Shown in pieces: positions 1 to 8,115 of a DNA stretch of 64,000 nucleotides. The DNA lies in NCBI RefSeq assembly GCF_001422665.1, contig NZ_LMLU01000001.1, forward strand, positions 153,282 to 217,281. The letters are read 5' to 3'. The position numbers were made by a program, and so were the translations under genes. The stretch comes from Arthrobacter sp. Leaf234 (lineage in GTDB: Bacteria; Actinomycetota; Actinomycetes; Actinomycetales; Micrococcaceae). The stretch's first letter is position 1, and the number at the start of each line of letters is the position of its first letter. The notes below the pieces were generated by a model. It did not search any database. It was not told the DNA's origin and saw only the letters and a list, made by a program, of their open reading frames with translations.

Positions 1-1
1 C

Positions 2-1084
2 TGGTGCACCGCCGATCTCGCCTGGGTGACGGCACACACCTACGAGATCTACGGTCCGCTCTCCAACGGCGCCACGCAGGTGATCTTCGAAGGCACACCC
101 GACACGCCCCACCCCGGCCGCCACTTCGAGATCATCGAACGCTACGGCGTGACGAGCTACTACACGGCGCCCACCCTGGTCCGTTCCCTCATGGGCTGGT
201 TCCCGGACGGTGTCCCGTCCACCTGGGACCTCTCGAGCCTCCGCGTCCTCGGGACGGTCGGCGAGGCCGTGAACCCCGAAGCCTGGCGCTGGTTCCGCCG
301 GAACCTCGGCCGCGACGAGCTCCCCGTCGTCGACACGTGGTGGCAGTCCGAGACCGGCGCCACGATCCTCTCCCCCAGCCCCACGGACTCCTCGTTCAAG
401 CCGGGCTGCGCGGCGCGGGCCCTGCCGGGGGTCTCCACGCGGATCGTCGACCGGCACGGCGCGGCGGTGCCGGCGGGCGAGCAGGGCCTGATCGTCGTCG
501 ACCGTCACGGCCCCGCGATGGCCCGGACCGTCTGGGGCGATCCCCAGCGCTACCTCGACTCCTACTGGCGGATGTTCGCTGCCGAGGGCTGGTTCCTCGC
601 CGGCGACGGCGCGCGGTACGACGACGACGGCGACACCTGGATCCTCGGGCGCGTGGACGACGTGATCAACGTGTCCGGTCACCGGCTGTCGACGATCGAG
701 ATCGAGTCGGCCCTCGTCGCCCACCCGCTCGTCGTCGAGGCGGGCGTGTGCCCGATCGCCCATCCGGTGACGGGCCATGCCATCGCGGCCTTCGTGGTGC
801 TGGCCACCGGTACCGATCCGTCGATCGACGTCTCCGGGACGCTGCGGGCCCAGGTCGCCGAGGCGATCGGCCCGATCGCACGCCCCTCGGCCGTCGTGGT
901 CGTCGAGGACGTGCCGAAGACGCGCTCCGGCAAGATCATGCGGCGCCTGCTCACGCAGCTCTTCGAGGGCACGGAGCTGGGGGACACGACATCCCTGCAG
1001 AACGAGGGGTGCATCCCCGGGATCCAGGACGTCCTCCGCCTCAGCGTCCGAGGCGCTACTCCGGCAGGTCTGCCCCGCGGTTAA
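2..1084 (+). CDS. acsA: Acetyl-CoA synthetase, C-terminal part (5' end outside window)
   Basis: AMP-forming acyl-CoA ligase that activates acetate to acetyl-CoA through acetyl-AMP in the cytoplasm. The open frame runs in from the left edge, beginning with WCTADLAWVTAHTYEIYGPL, the acetyl-CoA-synthetase region after the P-loop. TWWQSETGA (adenylation core), GRVDDVINVSGHRLST (hinge) and the acyl-adenylate lysine motif KTRSGKIMRRLL follow in the expected order, so the C-terminal two-thirds is intact. The tail after the last motif (about 45 residues) is ordinary for the family. It converges with the LysM/NlpC gene across a shared terminator. The adenylation signature fits acetate; propionate cannot be excluded without the missing N-terminus. 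Confidence 0.9.
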   Translation, partial: WCTADLAWVTAHTYEIYGPLSNGATQVIFEGTPDTPHPGRHFEIIERYGVTSYYTAPTLVRSLMGWFPDGVPSTWDLSSLRVLGTVGEAVNPEAWRWFRRNLGRDELPVVDTWWQSETGATILSPSPTDSSFKPGCAARALPGVSTRIVDRHGAAVPAGEQGLIVVDRHGPAMARTVWGDPQRYLDSYWRMFAAEGWFLAGDGARYDDDGDTWILGRVDDVINVSGHRLSTIEIESALVAHPLVVEAGVCPIAHPVTGHAIAAFVVLATGTDPSIDVSGTLRAQVAEAIGPIARPSAVVVVEDVPKTRSGKIMRRLLTQLFEGTELGDTTSLQNEGCIPGIQDVLRLSVRGATPAGLPRG

Positions 1085-1148: not shown

Positions 1149-2039
1149 TTAGCCCACCCGGACGAAGGATGCTCCCGGAAGATCCGAGAGAGGGTGCTGC
1201 ATGGTGGCGTTGATGCCGTTCATGCCGCTGCTGATGACCTGGCCACCGCCGACGTAGACGGCCACGTGGCCGCCCGTGATGACGAGGTCACCGGGAGCGG
1301 GGGTGGACACCTGGGCGCCGAACTGGAAGAACTGCGAGGGGCCGAGGTCTCCGACGGAAATACCTGCCGCGCGCAGGGCCTTCTCGACCAGCACTGTGCA
1401 GTCCTGCACGGCACCGGCAGCGAGCTGCGCCCGGGCGGAGCCGAGGATGGCGCCCGCGGCGTTGCCCGAGGGAGCGGTCTCGGCGGCGACCGGGGTGATC
1501 GCTGCCGAGGCCAGGTAGACACCCGATCCGGCTTCCGTGGACACGGCCGGAGCCGGAGCGATTGCGGCGGCCTGCTGGACGGCAGGAGCAGCTGGTGCTG
1601 CGGCGACCGGGGCGGACACCGTCTGGGCCGGCGCCGCGACAGCAGCACCGGCGGCGGGGATGACGATCGTCTGTCCGGGGAAGATGACCGATGCGAGCGA
1701 GAGGCCGTTGGCGGTCAGGACCGTGGTGAGCTCGACGCCGTAGCGGGCCGAGATGGCACCCAGGGTGTCGCCGGCGGCGACGGTGTAAGCGGTGCCCGCG
1801 GCGCTTGCTGCGGCAGCGGGGGCGACCGCGGCGGTCGGAGCCGTCGTGCCCTCGGCGGTGTAGGTGCCGGCGTGTGCGGTGCCGACGGCGCTGAGGGCGA
1901 GGCCCGACGTCACGGCGACGATGGCGACCGGGCGGCCCACGGCGGTGGCTCCGCTCTTCGCGGCGCGGGACAGGCCCTGCAGCGCGAGGTTTCCGTCGAC
2001 GTCCGCGCGGTGGCGTGCCGGTGAAGTGATTCGTGACAT
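1149..2039 (-). CDS. Secreted LysM + NlpC/P60 peptidoglycan hydrolase
   Basis: A 296-residue exported cell-wall endopeptidase. The N-terminus has a basic stretch and a hydrophobic signal segment (about residues 36-57, ending SAVGTAHAG). One LysM peptidoglycan-binding domain (about 84-128: YTVAAGDTLGAISARYGV ... PGQTIVIP) is followed by an Ala/Pro-rich linker and a C-terminal NlpC/P60 domain with Cys214 (VQDCTVLVEKAL) and His258 (GGHVAVYVGGG). The usual DCSG box is DCTV here, a divergence I also associate with LysM/NlpC proteins of related actinobacteria. The start at 2039 is preferred over an in-frame upstream one because GGGAGAGG lies 9 nt before this ATG and the upstream frame runs through the riboswitch. 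Control is probably by c-di-AMP and an MtrA-like site (separate entries). Confidence 0.88.
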   Translation of the reverse strand: MSRITSPARHRADVDGNLALQGLSRAAKSGATAVGRPVAIVAVTSGLALSAVGTAHAGTYTAEGTTAPTAAVAPAAAASAAGTAYTVAAGDTLGAISARYGVELTTVLTANGLSLASVIFPGQTIVIPAAGAAVAAPAQTVSAPVAAAPAAPAVQQAAAIAPAPAVSTEAGSGVYLASAAITPVAAETAPSGNAAGAILGSARAQLAAGAVQDCTVLVEKALRAAGISVGDLGPSQFFQFGAQVSTPAPGDLVITGGHVAVYVGGGQVISSGMNGINATMQHPLSDLPGASFVRVG

Positions 2040-2051
2040 GGTTCTATACCT

Positions 2052-2258
2052 CTCCCATGCCTGCGGGGTGAGCTGTCGGGTTCGGATGGGAGTCACCCGG
2101 CCGCGGGCACCGCCGGTGGGCGGTGCGGTGCGACTTAACCCCGAGGACGCGTGCAGGGATCCTGCGCGTCCGGTGGAACTGATGGTTCCCCCGTCCCTGC
2201 CTTCGGTGTATGCGGACGTATCCCGATCGGCGGCAGGGCTCGGCAATCCGTGCGGGAG
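2052..2258 (-). promoter_or_regulatory. ydaO/yuaA-type c-di-AMP riboswitch
   Basis: On the minus strand the leader holds conserved blocks I recognise from actinobacterial ydaO elements upstream of cell-wall hydrolases: GCCGAGCCCTGCC, GCAGGGACGGGGGAACC, GGGTTAAGTCGC, CCGGGTGACTC and ATCCGAACCCGACAGCTCACC, in the usual order over about 200 nt. A TCCCAT/ATGGGA pairing (2086-2091 with 2053-2058) places the 3' strand of a helix on the first half of the Shine-Dalgarno GGGAGAGG (2049-2056). The family binds cyclic di-AMP and switches off cell-wall genes. The boundaries are approximate. Confidence 0.85.
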
Positions 2259-2629: not shown

Positions 2630-2734
2630 GCACCAACCCTAGGCGTACGGACCAGGACTCCGCCCTGACATCCGGCACCACGCAGAGCGACACATTGTTT
2701 GGATTGTCGCGACCCCGATGTCACACTCGTGCTT

Positions 2735-2837
2735 GACCATCCCGAGCGGCCGAGAGATCTGGCTCATTGACGCCGCGGCAACCCTGGCCCCCGTGCACCA
2801 CGGGGACAGTAGGGTGCTACTGCCAGAACGATGGAGG
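2735..2837 (+). promoter_or_regulatory. SAM-I (S-box) riboswitch overlapping the ribosome binding site
   Basis: S-box features appear in order: GAGCGGCCGAGAGATCTGGC, TGACGCCGCGGCAACC, a variable hairpin (CCCCGTG/CACGGGG, 2788-2805), then AGGGTGCTACTGCCAGA. The closing helix pairs CCATC (2737-2741) with GATGG (2830-2834). The 3' strand of that helix runs into the Shine-Dalgarno GGAGG (2833-2837) of the sfnG-like gene. SAM binding, which stabilises this helix, would therefore hide the ribosome binding site and shut the operon when methionine/SAM is plentiful. The class is known to control methionine and cysteine genes; the translational mechanism is inferred from the overlap. Confidence 0.85.
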
Positions 2838-2842
2838 AAGTC

Positions 2843-4009
2843 ATGAGCGTCGCCGACCTGTCCACTCCCCTGAAGTTCGCCTACTGGGTCCCCAACGTCA
2901 GTGGTGGTCTCGTGGTCTCGACCATCGAGCAGCGCACCAGCTGGGACTTCGACTACAACCGCAAGCTCGCCCGGATCGCGGAGGACGCCGGTTTCGAGTA
3001 CGCCCTGTCACAGACGCGGTACGCCGCCTCCTACGGCGCGGACAAGCAGCACGAGGCCACGAGCTTCTCGCTCGCCCTCCTCGCCGCGACCGAGAGACTC
3101 AAGGTGATCGCCGCCGTCCACCCCGGGATGTGGCACCCGGGCGTGCTGGCCAAGTTCATCATCACGGCCGACCACATCTCGAACGGCCGCGCGGCCGTGA
3201 ACATCGTCTCCGGCTGGCTGAAGGCCGAGTTCGTGAACTTCGGCCTCGAGTGGCTCGAGCACGACGAGCGCTATGTCCGCACGGAGGAGTTCATCCGCGT
3301 GCTCAGGGGCCTGTGGACCGAACAGGGCTACAGCCAGTCGGGGAAGTACTACGACATCACGGACTTCACACTGAGCCCCCCGCCCGTCGACGTCCCCGGC
3401 CGCCCGCACCCGGAAGTCTTCTTCGGCGGCAATTCGACGGCGGCGCAGGCCACTGCCGGCCGGGTCGCCGACTGGTACTTCTCGAACGGGAAGGACCTCG
3501 ACGGGTTCAGGGAGAACATCGCCGGGGTGCAGGCCTCGGCCACCGCCGCCGGGCGCCGTCCCCGGTACGGGCTGAACGGCTTCGTCATCGCCCGCGACTC
3601 CGAGAAGGAGGCGCGTGACACGCTCCGTGAGATCGTGGCCAAGGCCCACCGTCCCGCGGTCGAGGGCTTCCGCGACGCCGTGCAGGAAGCGGGCGCCTCC
3701 ACGAAGGACGGCAAGGGCATGTGGGCCGATTCCTCCTTCGAGGACCTCATCCAGTACAACGACGGCTTCCGGACGCAGCTGATCGGCACTCCGGAGCAGA
3801 TCGCCGAGCGGATCGTCGAGTACAAGAAGATCGGCGTCAACCTCTTCCTGACCTGCTACCTGCACTTCCAGGAGGAGGTCGCCGCCTTCGGGACGGACAT
3901 CCTCCCGATCGTGCGCGAGCTCGAGGCGGATGCGGCCCGCAGGGCCGGCGTCGACTTCGATCCGGACGAGACCCTCACCGGAACCCATCCCAGTAAGGCA
4001 GGTGTCTGA
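2843..4009 (+). CDS. sfnG: FMN-dependent dimethylsulfone monooxygenase (SfnG-like LLM oxidoreductase)
   Basis: A luciferase-like flavin-dependent monooxygenase of 388 residues, about the family length. The N-terminus (LKFAYWVPNVSGGLVVSTIE) and HPGMWHPGVLAKF are typical of SfnG, which oxidises dimethylsulfone to methanesulfinate with reduced FMN from a partner reductase; no reductase is encoded nearby. SGRAAVNIVSGW-type and FFGGNSTAAQ segments belong to the TIM barrel/flavin region. The ATG at 2843 is chosen over the ATG at 2831 because GGAGG ends 5 nt before it. The stop overlaps the metY start (TGATG). The SAM riboswitch and metY support a role in scavenging organic sulfur; the exact sulfone or sulfonate substrate is inferred. 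Confidence 0.85.
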   Translation: MSVADLSTPLKFAYWVPNVSGGLVVSTIEQRTSWDFDYNRKLARIAEDAGFEYALSQTRYAASYGADKQHEATSFSLALLAATERLKVIAAVHPGMWHPGVLAKFIITADHISNGRAAVNIVSGWLKAEFVNFGLEWLEHDERYVRTEEFIRVLRGLWTEQGYSQSGKYYDITDFTLSPPPVDVPGRPHPEVFFGGNSTAAQATAGRVADWYFSNGKDLDGFRENIAGVQASATAAGRRPRYGLNGFVIARDSEKEARDTLREIVAKAHRPAVEGFRDAVQEAGASTKDGKGMWADSSFEDLIQYNDGFRTQLIGTPEQIAERIVEYKKIGVNLFLTCYLHFQEEVAAFGTDILPIVRELEADAARRAGVDFDPDETLTGTHPSKAGV

Positions 4010-5388
4010 TGGCAGAACGTTCCTTCGGTTTCCGCACGCGTGCGCTCCACGCCGGCGGAACCCCCGACGCGACGCACGGCGCGCGGGCCGTCCCGATCTA
4101 CCAGACCACGTCCTTCGTGTTCAAGGACACGAACGACGCCGCGAACCTCTTCGCGCTGCAGAAGTACGGCAACATCTACTCGCGCATCGGCAACCCCACC
4201 GTCGCGGCCTTCGAGGAGCGCATCGCCTCCCTCGAGGGCGGGATCGGCGCAGTGGCGACGGCGTCGGGCATGAGTGCCGAGTTCATCACCTTCGCGGCCC
4301 TGTGCCAGGCGGGCGATCACATCGTCGCCGCCTCCCAGTTGTACGGCGGGACCGTGACCCAGCTCGACGTCACGCTGCGCCGCTTCGGCATCGAGACCAC
4401 CTTCGTGCCGGGGACCGACCCGGCGGACTACGCAGCGGCCATCCGCGAGAACACGAAGGCCGTCTACGCCGAGGTGATCGCGAACCCGTCCGGTGAGATC
4501 TCCGACCTCGCGGGACTCGCGAAGGTGGCGCACGACGCCGGCATCCCCTTCATCGTCGACTCCACACTGAGCACCCCCTACCTCGTGCGGCCCATCGAGC
4601 ACGGCGCCGACATCGTCATCCACTCGGCCACCAAGTTCATCGGCGGCCACGGCACCACCCTCGGCGGCGTGATCGTCGAGAGCGGCCGGTTCGACTGGGG
4701 CAACGGCAAGTTCCCCATGATGACCGAGCCGGTGCCCTCCTACGGCAACATCCAGTGGTGGGCGAACTTCGGTGAGTACGGGTTCCTCACCAAGCTCCGC
4801 ACCGAGCAGCTCCGCGACATCGGCCCGTCCCTCTCGCCGACGTCGGCCTTCCAGCTCCTGCAGGGCGTCGAGACGCTCGCCCAGCGCCTCGACGAGCACC
4901 TCGAGAACGCCCTCGCCGTGGCGCAGTGGCTCCAGGCCGATCCCCGCGTGGAGTACGTCAACTACGCAGGCCTGCCCACCCACCCGCACCATGACCGCGC
5001 GAGGACCTACCTCCCGCAGGGGCCGGGGTCCGTGTTCAGCTTCGGCATCCGGGGCGGGCGGAAAGCGGGCCAGAAGTTCATCGAGTCGCTGCAGCTCGCC
5101 TCGCACCTCGCGAACGTCGGCGACTCCCGGACGCTCGTGATCCACCCGGGCTCGACGACGCACCAGCAGCTCTCCACCGAACAGCTGGTCGCGGCGGGCG
5201 TTCCCGAGGACCTCGTCCGCATCTCCGTGGGTCTGGAGGACCTGGCCGACATCCTGTGGGACATCGACCAGGCACTCGCCCTCGCGGTCGATGCGACGGA
5301 CGAGGCCTTCGACGACCTCCCGCAGGAAGCGGCGGGCGGGAACGACGACGACGCGTCGGCGACGCGCGCAGTGGGAGTGGGAGCATGA
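4009..5388 (+). CDS. metY: O-acetylhomoserine sulfhydrylase (MetY type)
   Basis: PLP enzyme of the Cys/Met metabolism family, 459 residues. It makes homocysteine from O-acetylhomoserine and sulfide in direct-sulfhydrylation methionine synthesis. The N-terminus [14 protein letters not shown], the substrate/PLP segment [20 protein letters not shown] and the PLP lysine K209 in [11 protein letters not shown] are all present. The long insertion typical of MetY ([18 protein letters not shown]) separates it from the shorter MetB/MetZ enzymes. Translation is coupled at both ends: TGATG with sfnG and ATGA with the CoA-binding gene. It lies under the SAM riboswitch. Confidence 0.93.
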
Positions 5389-5888
5389 GCGGCACGGAAG
5401 CAGCACCTCGCACGTGGGAGGGGCCCTCGGCGCCCGAGCGGCTCGCCCTGCTCCGGAGCGCCCGGTCCGTCGCGATCGTCGGCGCCTCCGACAAGCCGTC
5501 GCGGGCGTCCTACTTCGTGGCGACCTACCTGCAGTCGTCCTCGCCCTACCGCCTGTACTTCGTCAATCCGGTGGCCGGCCGGATCCTCGGGCAGCCCGCC
5601 TATGCGTCGCTCAAGGATCTCCCCGAGGTCCCCGACGTGGTCGACGTGTTTCGGAAGCACGACGACCTGCCGTCCGTGCTGGAGGAGACCCTCGACGTCG
5701 GAGCGAAGACGCTGTGGCTGCAGCTCGGCTCCTGGCACGAGGACGTGGCGCGTTCCGCGGAGGCGGCGGGCCTGGACGTCGTGATGGACCGCTGCATCAA
5801 GATCGAGCACGCGCGCTTCCACGGCGGACTCAACCTTGCGGGCTTCAACACCGGAGTAATCTCCTCGAAGCGGCAGATCACGTCCTAG
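5385..5888 (+). CDS. CoA-binding domain protein (YccU-like)
   Basis: A 167-residue cytosolic protein formed almost wholly by one Rossmann-type CoA-binding domain: SVAIVGASDKPSRASY (nucleotide loop), VNPVAGRILGQPAY, DVVDVFRKHDDLP, TLWLQLGSWHED and VVMDRCIKIEHARF, the order found in YccU/succinyl-CoA-synthetase alpha-like proteins. The ligand is probably CoA or a CoA thioester. Its start overlaps the metY stop (ATGA), so it is translated with the sulfur genes under SAM control, but its job in sulfur metabolism is unknown. Its TAG stop overlaps the stop of the convergent gene within the palindrome CTAG. Confidence 0.85.
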   Translation: MSGTEAAPRTWEGPSAPERLALLRSARSVAIVGASDKPSRASYFVATYLQSSSPYRLYFVNPVAGRILGQPAYASLKDLPEVPDVVDVFRKHDDLPSVLEETLDVGAKTLWLQLGSWHEDVARSAEAAGLDVVMDRCIKIEHARFHGGLNLAGFNTGVISSKRQITS

Positions 5889-7564
5889 CCGGCCGGCGCT
5901 GCAGCGCTGTCCTCCGTCGGGGTGTCGCCTGCGTGGGCCGGGGCGCCATCGTCCGCGTCGTCGTCGCCCGCGTCGGCATCGTCCGCGTCGGCATCGTCCG
6001 CGGCGGAAACGACGCCCGGGACACCAGGGGTCGTCACTCCGGTGCCGGCCGGTACCGGCACGGGGCCGTCACTGCTGGGCGCCATGGCAGGTCCCGTCAG
6101 CGTGCCGCCGTCGGAGGTCGACACGGAACCCGACCCGGAGGTCTCGGCCTCCGGCGCCGTGATCGCTGCGTCTGCTGATCCGTCGTCCGGCGCGGCAGGG
6201 TCGACCGGACCGGGAGCCGCGCCGTCGACGGATACCGCTCCGCCCGTGTTCCCGGCCGGGGCGACGCCCGCTGAAGCATCGACCTGAGCGTCGGGCACAG
6301 CAGTCACCCCAGGCACCGGGGCGTCGACGGGACCGTGGTGGAGTGTCCCGTCGCGCACCGGGGCTTCCTCCGGCGCAGCTGCAGGATCGACCGGCACCGG
6401 AGCGTCCGCGGGGAGGCTCCACCAGGTCCCGTCATCGATTCCCGGGTCGGCGACGAACGTGTACAGCCACGGATCCTCCTCCCACAGCGGGGCGGACAGG
6501 ACCGGCGCGTCCCATGGCTCGACGGGCGCCATCAGCAGGAAGCGGTGCTGCGGACCGGGCGTCGGCGCGGCGTGCGGCGACGTCGGAGCACCATCGGGAT
6601 GGACCGCGTGGGTGGACCCCCGGAGCCCGGGATCGCCGATGCGCCGAGCCTGCTCGCGGACAGCCTTCGTGCCGGCGTTCGTGTCCCGGGGACCGGCCGG
6701 GACGCCGGGCGTGGCCTTGCCCGGACCCGGCGCCGGGCGCTCCTGACGGGGACCGTGGGCACCCGGTGGCCGGCCCGGCGCGGTGGTCGTCCCGGGCGCG
6801 GGCGCGGGCACGGGCGCCCGGGTTGCGGGTACGCGGTTCGCTCCCGCCGTCGTCGGACTGCCCGGCGAGGTGGCGGTCGGCGCAGCCGCGGTCGGCATCG
6901 GGGACGAGGGGGCGACGACGGACCGCACGGCGGGAACCGACGCCGCGGCGGGAGCAGCACCCGACACCGAGGCGGGCACGCTCGTCGGAGCTCCTGCACC
7001 ACCGGGGGATGCACCGGGAGCCCTGTCGCGTGGGGCGGGCGCTCCGCCGGGCAGGGCGTCACCCGCTCCCGGCCCGGCTGCAGGACCACCGGGGGCCGGG
7101 GCCGCGGCAGGTGCCGGCGGTGGTGCGGCCGGAAGCGTCAGGGGCGCGCCGCCGGCCGGACCGGACGGCGCCCTGCCGGCACCGGCCTGGACCAGCGGGG
7201 CAGGGCCGAGCTCGGCGCGATCAGCGCTGTCGCGGATGGAGAAGCGGGTGATCGACTCGACGGCGTCACCGATCCCCTGAGGGAAGTGGACCGTGCCCGC
7301 GGCGACGCCGGACATCCCGACTCCCATTGAGACGGCGAGTGCACCGCCGATGAAGGTGATGCGGCGCTTGTGGCGCCGCCCCTGCCCTGCCTTGCCGCCG
7401 TCGGCCATGAGCTGTGCCAGGGCTGCGGACGCATCGGGCGCGGGGCCCGCGGCGAGGTCCCGGACGATCCCGACGGCGCGGACGAGGGCCGGGTCCTCGG
7501 GGATGCCGGACTCCTGGAGGAGAGGCAGCACGGGGTCCGGCGACGGGGTGTCATGACCAGTCAT
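5885..7564 (-). CDS. Putative membrane anti-sigma factor with long Pro/Ala-rich extracellular region
   Basis: 559 residues: a short cytoplasmic N-terminal helical region (about 1-70), a basic stop-transfer (RRHKRR), one transmembrane segment (about 70-92), then some 460 residues rich in Ala, Pro, Gly, Ser and Asp with little predicted fold. Its start overlaps the end of the ECF sigma gene (ATGA), the classical arrangement for sigma/anti-sigma pairs, and the topology (inside N-terminus, one helix, large outside part) fits. There is no zinc-binding HxxxCxxC motif, so it is not a ZAS-type anti-sigma factor. The function is inferred from position and topology; the low-complexity domain might span or sense the wall. 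Confidence 0.65.
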   Translation of the reverse strand: MTGHDTPSPDPVLPLLQESGIPEDPALVRAVGIVRDLAAGPAPDASAALAQLMADGGKAGQGRRHKRRITFIGGALAVSMGVGMSGVAAGTVHFPQGIGDAVESITRFSIRDSADRAELGPAPLVQAGAGRAPSGPAGGAPLTLPAAPPPAPAAAPAPGGPAAGPGAGDALPGGAPAPRDRAPGASPGGAGAPTSVPASVSGAAPAAASVPAVRSVVAPSSPMPTAAAPTATSPGSPTTAGANRVPATRAPVPAPAPGTTTAPGRPPGAHGPRQERPAPGPGKATPGVPAGPRDTNAGTKAVREQARRIGDPGLRGSTHAVHPDGAPTSPHAAPTPGPQHRFLLMAPVEPWDAPVLSAPLWEEDPWLYTFVADPGIDDGTWWSLPADAPVPVDPAAAPEEAPVRDGTLHHGPVDAPVPGVTAVPDAQVDASAGVAPAGNTGGAVSVDGAAPGPVDPAAPDDGSADAAITAPEAETSGSGSVSTSDGGTLTGPAMAPSSDGPVPVPAGTGVTTPGVPGVVSAADDADADDADAGDDDADDGAPAHAGDTPTEDSAAAPAG

Positions 7565-8115
7565 AGCGCGTCCGATTCGTTGGGGTGTACGAGTTCCTTC
7601 AGCTTGAGCAGTCCCCGCCGCTGCAACTGCTTGACCGATCCCGCCGATCTCCCCAGGATCCCGGCCACCTGGTCGATCGGCAGTTCGGCGACGATGCGGA
7701 GCAGGAGCACATCACGCTGCTCGTCGTTGAGCTGGGCGAGCATGCTTCCCGCACCTCCGAGGTCGAGCTGCCCGAGGGCCACGGTCTCGGCGGAGTCCGT
7801 CAGCCGCGTGTCACCGTCCGCCTCGTAGCCGACGACCACGGGTGTCCGGGTCCTCCTCCGCACCTCGTCCACGTACCGGGCGTGCGCGACGGAGAACGTG
7901 AAGGTCCGGAGTCCGGCGAGCCCCCCTGCCACGGTGTCGAGTTTCGAGAAGACGGTGAGGAACACCTCCTGGGTCAGGGCTTCCGGATCCTCGGAGCCGC
8001 GCCCCGCGAAGTAGCCCAGCACGGCCGGACCGAGCGCCTGGTAGAGGAGGGAGAAGGCCGCGGGTTCGCCTGCTTGAGCGCGGGTGAGCGCATCCTCAGG
8101 CAGCGGTGTGACCAC
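7561..8115 (-). CDS. ECF-family RNA polymerase sigma factor
   Basis: 184 residues with a sigma region 2 (ALTQEVFLTVFSKLD ... LRTFTFSVAHARYVDEVRR) and a region 4 helix-turn-helix (LNDEQRDVLLLRIVAELPID, QVAGILGRSAGSVKQLQRRG). This domain layout is that of extracytoplasmic-function sigma factors. GTG start at 8115, with AAGGA 7 nt upstream. It is co-translated with the downstream putative anti-sigma gene. Region 2.1 (AGEPAAFSLLYQALGPAVLGYF) is intact. Its regulon and signal are unknown; no copy of its own promoter could be recognised in the 90 bp upstream. Confidence 0.88.
   Translation of the reverse strand: MVTPLPEDALTRAQAGEPAAFSLLYQALGPAVLGYFAGRGSEDPEALTQEVFLTVFSKLDTVAGGLAGLRTFTFSVAHARYVDEVRRRTRTPVVVGYEADGDTRLTDSAETVALGQLDLGGAGSMLAQLNDEQRDVLLLRIVAELPIDQVAGILGRSAGSVKQLQRRGLLKLKELVHPNESDAL

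Follow-up and report, generated by a model that had tools for sequence, protein, structure and literature searches.

In a 64,000-nucleotide stretch of the Arthrobacter sp. Leaf234 genome (positions 153,282 to 217,281 of contig NZ_LMLU01000001.1; hereafter the window), an aptamer of the SAM-I kind stands directly before a three-gene operon for a dimethylsulfone-type monooxygenase (sfnG), an O-acetylhomoserine sulfhydrylase (metY) and a coenzyme A (CoA)-binding protein. We read this element, at 2734–2837, as an OFF riboswitch that would sense S-adenosylmethionine (SAM) and act on translation of the operon. We further read the operon as one half of a larger cluster, each half with its own switch, and the CoA-binding protein as a probable partner of MetY; to this reading as a whole we assign a probability of about 0.72. 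It draws on the sequence, the conservation of structure, gene order, linkage and one gene fusion.

A covariance search of the whole window with the SAM-I (S-box) model RF00162 returned the element at 49.3 bits, above the gathering threshold of 44.4 (E = 2.8e-8), in agreement with the first-pass annotation, which had read an S-box leader here from the letters alone. Helices P1, P2a, P2b and P3 and the pseudoknot PK-1 are all present. P1 pairs CCATC (2737–2741) with GATGG (2830–2834), P2a joins 2746–2750 to 2772–2776, P2b joins 2754–2756 to 2763–2765, PK-1 (CUGG/CCAG) joins 2759–2762 to 2823–2826 and P3 joins 2777–2783 to 2813–2818, with a G-U pair where A-U is expected at the base of P3; a kink-turn was judged by eye from the sequence. 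We aligned the window aptamer with 36 others chosen by hand from 48 non-redundant aptamers (of 63), the remaining 12 being left out by no rule. In this alignment of 37 aptamers, standard pairs occupy 99.3% of the pair cells of P1, P2a, P2b, PK-1 and P3, P1 and PK-1 are paired in every aptamer, and 42 columns are invariant. Changes on both sides of a pair occur in 5 of 23 pairs, a number reached by none of 500 shuffles, with such changes in P1, P2a and P2b; since 15 of the 23 pairs never vary, the covariation support is modest. A custom covariance model, R1, gives the window aptamer 88.6 bits, the window being one of the model's 37 building rows. The pairing is kept, as are the switch and the gene order in named relatives (below), and this confirms that aptamer and gene arrangement together go beyond chance. 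Two other Rfam matches in the leader, mir-5408 and SNORD23, lie far below cutoff and were taken as chance.

The aptamer has no P4 helix: 17 positions of the RF00162 model are deleted in it. The motif GGTGC is followed by 21 nt in 30 of 30 loci from the family, all of which therefore lack P4, and by 32–60 nt in 24 of 30 loci from the phylum (five were unparsed and one, L206, was misparsed inside P4); these phylum loci are the best-scoring RF00162 matches, and P4-less forms may occur elsewhere. Judged by sequence, the sfnG leader is a SAM-I core without P4. The absence of P4 is what sets SAM-IV apart from SAM-I, according to passages of PMC6890682. We nevertheless rejected SAM-IV for this leader because the start codon, 8 nt after P1, leaves no room for the P5 and PK-2 elements of that class and because none of the five RF00634 matches in the genome falls at this place. 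SAM-I/IV was likewise rejected, since RF01725 matched nothing in the genome at E 0.001. The two SAM-sensing classes commonly coexist, with RF00634 matching 148 and RF00162 122 of 149 genomes of the family; Leaf234 itself has five SAM-IV riboswitches (L112–L116) alongside two of SAM-I type.

The P1 strand GATGG has two bases in common with GGAGG, the Shine-Dalgarno sequence of sfnG, and the remainder of GGAGG lies directly 3' of P1, five bases from the ATG. This is the likely start (2843–2845), a second in-frame ATG at 2831 lying inside P1. Between P1 (3' strand) and the start codon we count 7–9 nt in the window and 11 relatives, and 7–10 nt in those aligned loci that have the switch immediately before acs or ssuB or, for the clade of the window, before sfnG; in all of those loci except L060 and L067 an open frame runs from that start into acs or ssuB. 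A scan of 2600–2860 (chance expectation about zero) found no terminator-like site, although it detects one terminator type and Rho-dependent control is invisible to it. Downstream, metY begins on the last base of the sfnG stop codon (TGATG), and the start of the CoA-binding gene overlaps the end of metY by 4 nt (ATGA, 5385–5388). The first-pass annotation had noted the GATGG/GGAGG overlap and the coupling of the three genes and had predicted control through the ribosome-binding site: the overlap and coupling are as described, P1 takes in only two bases of GGAGG, all three gene identities exceed their cutoffs, and the spacing and the terminator scan support the predicted control. Passages of PMC2258182 give a precedent for capture of the ribosome-binding site in P1 of a SAM-I riboswitch with direct attenuation of translation, and PMC7270179, in part, describes a tested SAM-I riboswitch acting on translation.

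We thus propose that high SAM would stabilise the short P1 helix (CCAUC/GAUGG), whose 3' strand contains the start of the Shine-Dalgarno sequence, so that ribosomes would be blocked at sfnG and, through the overlaps, metY and the CoA-binding gene would be turned down together with it; a drop in SAM would open P1 and allow the operon to be translated. A conserved block before the aptamer is a candidate promoter; its putative role comes from conservation, and the leader scan gave no sigma-70 consensus match.

Table 1. Features of the operon, its leader and the preceding region (window coordinates).
Feature	Position	Strand	Basis
SAM-I type (S-box) aptamer without P4	2734..2837	+	RF00162; structure count in 37 aptamers; custom model R1
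Shine-Dalgarno GGAGG of sfnG	2833..2837	+	sequence; first two bases within P1 3' strand
sfnG, dimethylsulfone-type monooxygenase dependent on reduced flavin mononucleotide (FMNH2)	2843..4009	+	TIGR04021 equivalog, 620 bits, cutoff 383
metY, O-acetylhomoserine sulfhydrylase	4009..5388	+	TIGR01326, 602 bits, cutoff 495
CoA-binding protein, metY-linked kind	5385..5888	+	PF13380 CoA_binding_2, 136 bits, cutoff 22.8; C-terminal tail
Conserved block (TTGTTTGG ... TGTCACACT), candidate promoter	2695..2727	+	window aligned with 11 tree-neighbour loci
acs (acetate--CoA ligase), 3' part	1..1084	+	full gene in L117: TIGR02188, 787 bits, cutoff 725
LysM-type wall protein gene	1149..2039	-	LysM-family matches below their cutoffs
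Cyclic di-AMP (c-di-AMP) riboswitch leader of LysM-type gene	2043..2218	-	RF00379, 44.1 bits, gathering 38

The larger cluster, its switches and its sulfur source

By gene order, the sfnG operon is the distal half of a cluster ssuB-ssuA-ssuC-acs-sfnG-metY-CoA-binding. The upstream half ends with acs, and its aptamer lies 3.9 kb before the window; SsuA matches its family at 212 bits (cutoff 163), and the transporter ATPase and permease have their best matches in the sulfonate type, yet below cutoff. The LysM-type gene with its c-di-AMP leader stands between the halves, as it does in L032–L035 and L037.

The upstream aptamer (G000:C1:149398–149563), 6.6 kb from the one before sfnG, was found by a regular-expression scan and by R1 and missed by Rfam, RF00162 having a single match in the genome. 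R1 gives it 75.9 bits in L117, and 44.2 bits over 149398–149479 in the genome search. It has a long P3 insert, and the 3' strand of its P1 ends 7 nt before the ssuB start. R1 itself was built only from aptamers whose P3-L3 stretch is 9–40 nt. Of 12 loci with an aptamer located by either R1 or RF00162, six were recovered by RF00162 at its gathering score; the six that it missed are L119, L137, L129, L130, L042 and L069, where P3, if measured, is longer. In L042, L045, L056 and their kin, the aptamers before acs have long P3 extensions (60–100 nt in many) of partly common sequence.

To follow cluster and switch in relatives we used 80 named loci, the best 80 of at least 580 confirmed in an SfnG scan of genome contigs. 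In 76 of the 80, metY lies at most 400 bases behind sfnG (the others being L036, L108, L109 and L111), and 75 of these 76 have a CoA-binding gene after metY, the sole exception, L099, being a contig that ends in metY; the pairing put forward in the first-pass annotation is therefore kept in relatives. In L036 (Arthrobacter ruber), sfnG has its own riboswitch, and two more aptamers lie 8 kb apart on another contig. In 51 of the 80 loci acs lies at most 400 bases ahead of sfnG, and the whole cluster runs in one line in Georgenia, Brachybacterium and many Arthrobacter and Pseudarthrobacter. sfnG is present in 40 of the 148 family genomes searched.

An aptamer precedes sfnG, acs or ssuB in 62 of the 80 loci (26, 22 and 14, respectively). 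Of the 14 ssuB cases, most of them cut by the end of the locus, 11 come from R1 within the locus and three (L044, L054, L058) from genome searches; L050, L059, L065 and L073 are weak (E 0.04–0.09), and low scores were also obtained for L110 (54 bits) and L060 (41 bits). No aptamer shows in the remaining 18 (L043, L057, L062, L064, L071, L078, L079, L082, L089, L097, L099, L102–L105, L107, L109 and L111), of which L043, L062 and L099 are short contigs. In genome searches R1 found a match in 11 of 21 genomes. Both halves bear a switch in the window's clade: the genomes of L032, L033, L039 and L041 each contain two aptamers, separated by 5.9–6.6 kb of the same contig, of which the upstream aptamer precedes ssuB. 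Because L039 and L041 have both switches and no detected LysM-type gene, the splitting of the cluster need not stem from that gene. One SfnG tree, made by a quick method and with labels taken partly from matches cut by locus ends, requires a minimum of 11 changes in the position of the switch.

What SfnG acts upon is less certain. It shares 201 of 352 aligned residues (57%) with the FMNH2-dependent dimethylsulfone monooxygenase of PDB 8t0u, and SsuD models give it just 158 bits. In pseudomonads, according to passages of PMC8234197, SfnG yields methanesulfinate, MsuC methanesulfonate and MsuD sulfite. The Leaf234 genome has no SsuD or MsuD over the TIGR03565 cutoff of 518; the model has two matches, one to SfnG itself at 152 bits and one of 74 bits to an NtaA-type enzyme. 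For this reason either another enzyme would complete the dimethyl sulfone route or SfnG would have another substrate, and we are unsure of dimethyl sulfone as its substrate. There is a substantial chance, short of even odds, that SfnG stands in for SsuD, its substrate being a sulfonate or another sulfone imported by SsuABC. The genome pairs an ssuBAC cluster in which no ssuD was found with this absence of SsuD and MsuD, and in Nonomuraea an SsuD-like enzyme (453 bits, against the same cutoff) lies beside metY and the CoA-binding gene; the TIGR04021 score far above cutoff, the identity to the solved enzyme and the low SsuD score all argue the other way.

Whatever the substrate, the sulfonate-type ATP-binding cassette (ABC) transporter genes in the same cluster strengthen the probable link to organosulfur scavenging. 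The first-pass annotation had tied organosulfone scavenging to methionine demand; the transporter genes favour the link as such, and its dimethyl sulfone part comes from homology alone. McbR of Corynebacterium connects the same two themes through a protein. Under the preferred reading, import and C-S cleavage would supply sulfur for the formation of homocysteine by MetY, and thence methionine and SAM, with Acs perhaps re-activating the acetate set free by MetY. Elsewhere in the genome, SAM-IV riboswitches precede metY2-metX, an NtaA/DmoA-type luciferase-like (LLM) monooxygenase and two ABC transporters of uncertain substrate, and the fifth stands before an open reading frame (ORF) of at most 233 codons, after which comes an SfnB-like oxidase (259 bits, cutoff 431). 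With five SAM-IV riboswitches before such genes, sulfur genes appear to be a common target of SAM control in this genome.

Two neighbourhoods of the cluster deserve mention. A second PF13380 paralog (L117:383–904, reverse strand) is divergent from ssuB and also found beside the cluster in many relatives. Beyond the operon, 5885–7564 (reverse strand) encodes a proline/alanine-rich protein with no NCBIfam match, which comes after a 184-residue ORF at 7561–8115 (reverse strand) that reads as sigma-factor-like.

The metY-linked CoA-binding protein

Of 246 genomes from the phylum, 73 have homologues of the CoA-binding protein at E 1e-20, and the 30 best homologues were taken as loci. A metY of at least 50% identity adjoins in seven of the 30 (window included) and a distant relative (35–37%) in two more; the other 21 have no metY within flanks of 1.5 kb or less per side. 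All seven metY-linked copies, and none of the other 23, carry a C-terminal tail of the form KIEH.R..GGL...G..TG.I.S, with variations (judged by eye). The seven span six families, and in L166 and L170 the CoA-binding gene comes first; they are kin and not independent events.

Plasmid records gave 64 further matches, five of which we looked at. A Microbacterium plasmid has the order ssuB-ssuA-ssuC-acs-metY-CoA-binding. The Nonomuraea record reads metX-metY-CoA-binding, followed by the SsuD-like enzyme described above, and its CoA-binding protein has a similar tail. In Thermomicrobium roseum, MetY (TIGR01326, 664 bits, cutoff 495) and PF13380 are joined in one protein of 624 residues, which lacks this tail and whose gene adjoins that of an acyl-CoA ligase. 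The Haladaptatus and Nostoc records show no annotated metY nearby, their gene table being incomplete.

The fusion, the linkage in both gene orders and the common tail make MetY the most likely partner of the CoA-binding protein, so far as sequence comparison can tell. The putative partnership suggested in the first-pass annotation gains from all three. An alternative we consider unlikely is that the CoA-binding gene rides along as a passenger and owes its position behind metY to common operon ancestry only. Most of the loci compared are close kin, and the 21 homologues lacking a nearby metY would fit such a gene, but linkage reaches six families in both orders, the tail is seen only in metY-linked copies (in the sample of 30), and the Thermomicrobium fusion joins the two proteins in one chain.

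A CoA ligase gene is adjacent in the Micrococcales cluster, in the Microbacterium plasmid and in Thermomicrobium. In five other metY-CoA-binding loci that we widened no CoA ligase is adjacent; ligase-like matches lie 2–4 kb away in three (51%, 27% and 31%) and are absent from two. Because the ligase is not adjacent in these five, a general link of the metY-CoA-binding pair to CoA ligase and acetate recycling is something we infer and no more. Tentatively, we picture the metY-linked protein as a dedicated, CoA- or acetyl-CoA-dependent partner of MetY whose tail would dock on that enzyme and tie homocysteine formation to the acetyl-CoA/CoA state, with Acs recapturing acetate as acetyl-CoA and the P4-less SAM-I switch setting the amount of the module; taken in all its parts, this picture is possible but somewhat doubtful.

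A further locus from a distant genome of the phylum (L210, genome G225) has a metY-CoA-binding pair preceded, at a distance of about 0.9 kb and on the same strand, by an RF00162 match, and no plus-strand ORF of 100 codons lies between the two.

Evidence for and against the switch

Several observations weigh against the reading set out at the beginning. To the missing SsuD and MsuD and the five loci with no adjacent ligase must be added that the Microbacterium plasmid cluster has no sfnG, and that the aptamer lacks P4 and scores just 5 bits above the Rfam cutoff. R1 has no match in 10 of the 21 genomes searched, a search in which limited candidates were scored and long-P3 copies may escape; the ten comprise two Georgenia, four Brachybacterium, one Brevibacterium (L109) and the Arthrobacter of L057, L064 and L071. 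All six Georgenia and Brachybacterium and the three Arthrobacter keep the cluster with no detected switch, which makes the switch dispensable for the cluster. Finally, when the 123-nt leader is folded in silico, the minimum-energy structure does not contain P1 and instead pairs 2833–2834 with the PK-1 strand and 2836–2837 with 2741–2742. The predicted ligand-free fold would thus also hide most of the Shine-Dalgarno sequence, contrary to the open state presumed at low SAM. The 102-nt aptamer alone is predicted to form P1, and the fold energies of leader and aptamer are near those of shuffles (z of -1.2 and -1.9); the folding program models neither PK-1 nor SAM.

A mainly transcriptional riboswitch, acting by termination or Rho with the ribosome-binding-site overlap secondary, seems improbable to us. 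Other platforms do exist: in other Micrococcaceae (L083, L086, L087, L090, L091, L092, L096, L100 and L108) the aptamer ends about 125–150 nt before the aligned sfnG start, a distance from which the expression platform there appears to be a different one, perhaps the common stretch GAGAGAGCGCAAGCAATCTTTGATCC that follows P1, well before sfnG, in L083, L087, L091, L092 and L096. Rho-dependent control would, moreover, escape the terminator scan. In the window, on the other hand, that scan was empty, and the five bases between GGAGG and ATG leave no terminator space before the start. Least probable of all is a degenerate or relic S-box with sfnG expression set by the promoter alone, for although the slim margin over the cutoff, the G-U pair in P3, the relatives with no detected switch and a ligand-free fold that hides the Shine-Dalgarno sequence anyway would fit it, 42 invariant columns with the pairs kept, and a switch that has accompanied the cluster, in place or relocated, in 62 of 80 loci, speak against decay. 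We therefore retain the SAM-sensing translational switch as the preferred reading.

Novelty and comparison with known systems

We found no paper in the open-licence literature that brings together a SAM riboswitch and a dimethylsulfone monooxygenase, riboswitches with dimethyl sulfone and methionine, or a CoA-binding protein with O-acetylhomoserine and operon or with MetY; sfnG with riboswitch led only to a general review. Gordonia papers in which sfnG occurs mention neither a riboswitch nor metY, and a paper on dimethyl sulfide mentions no riboswitch. The mechanism of the switch is known, whereas the gene set it would control and the metY-tied CoA-binding protein look new. If the reading is right, organosulfur scavenging in soil Actinobacteria would be set by SAM, and the PF13380 family, which is without a settled role, would gain MetY as a candidate partner, with the tail and a natural fusion as guides. 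At its gathering score, moreover, the Rfam SAM-I model misses aptamers of this clade that have a longer P3, and the clade's SAM regulons are under-counted as a result.

The CoA-binding domain is common in its whole length to the window protein and the PF13380 proteins of PDB 2duw, 1iuk (TT1466) and 2d59 (PH1109); the alignments to all three end at or before the start of the metY-linked tail GGL..G..TG.I.S. As regards its enzyme, the operon resembles the Pseudomonas sfn/msu pathway, described in passages of PMC8234197 and PMC13352529, in having an SfnG-type enzyme and a probable role in organosulfur scavenging. That pathway is regulated by SfnR, whereas SAM is the predicted regulator here; and the Leaf234 genome, unlike Pseudomonas, has no MsuD over cutoff (MsuC was not searched for).

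The switch itself is of a known kind with one feature, P4, missing. It shares the core, the capture of the ribosome-binding site in the 3' side of P1 and the occurrence in Actinobacteria with the SAM-I (RF00162) riboswitch treated in passages of PMC2258182, and differs in lacking P4 and in its predicted control of a sulfone/sulfonate-MetY cluster. As in the SAM-I riboswitch of the Xanthomonas met operon (PMC7270179, in part), action would be mainly on translation of methionine genes; the Xanthomonas platform additionally senses uncharged initiator tRNA, in which it differs from the sfnG leader. SAM-IV (RF00634), as portrayed in parts of PMC6890682 and present in five copies in the same genome, likewise lacks P4 and keeps PK-1, but it has P5 and PK-2, neither of which the sfnG leader has before its start codon.

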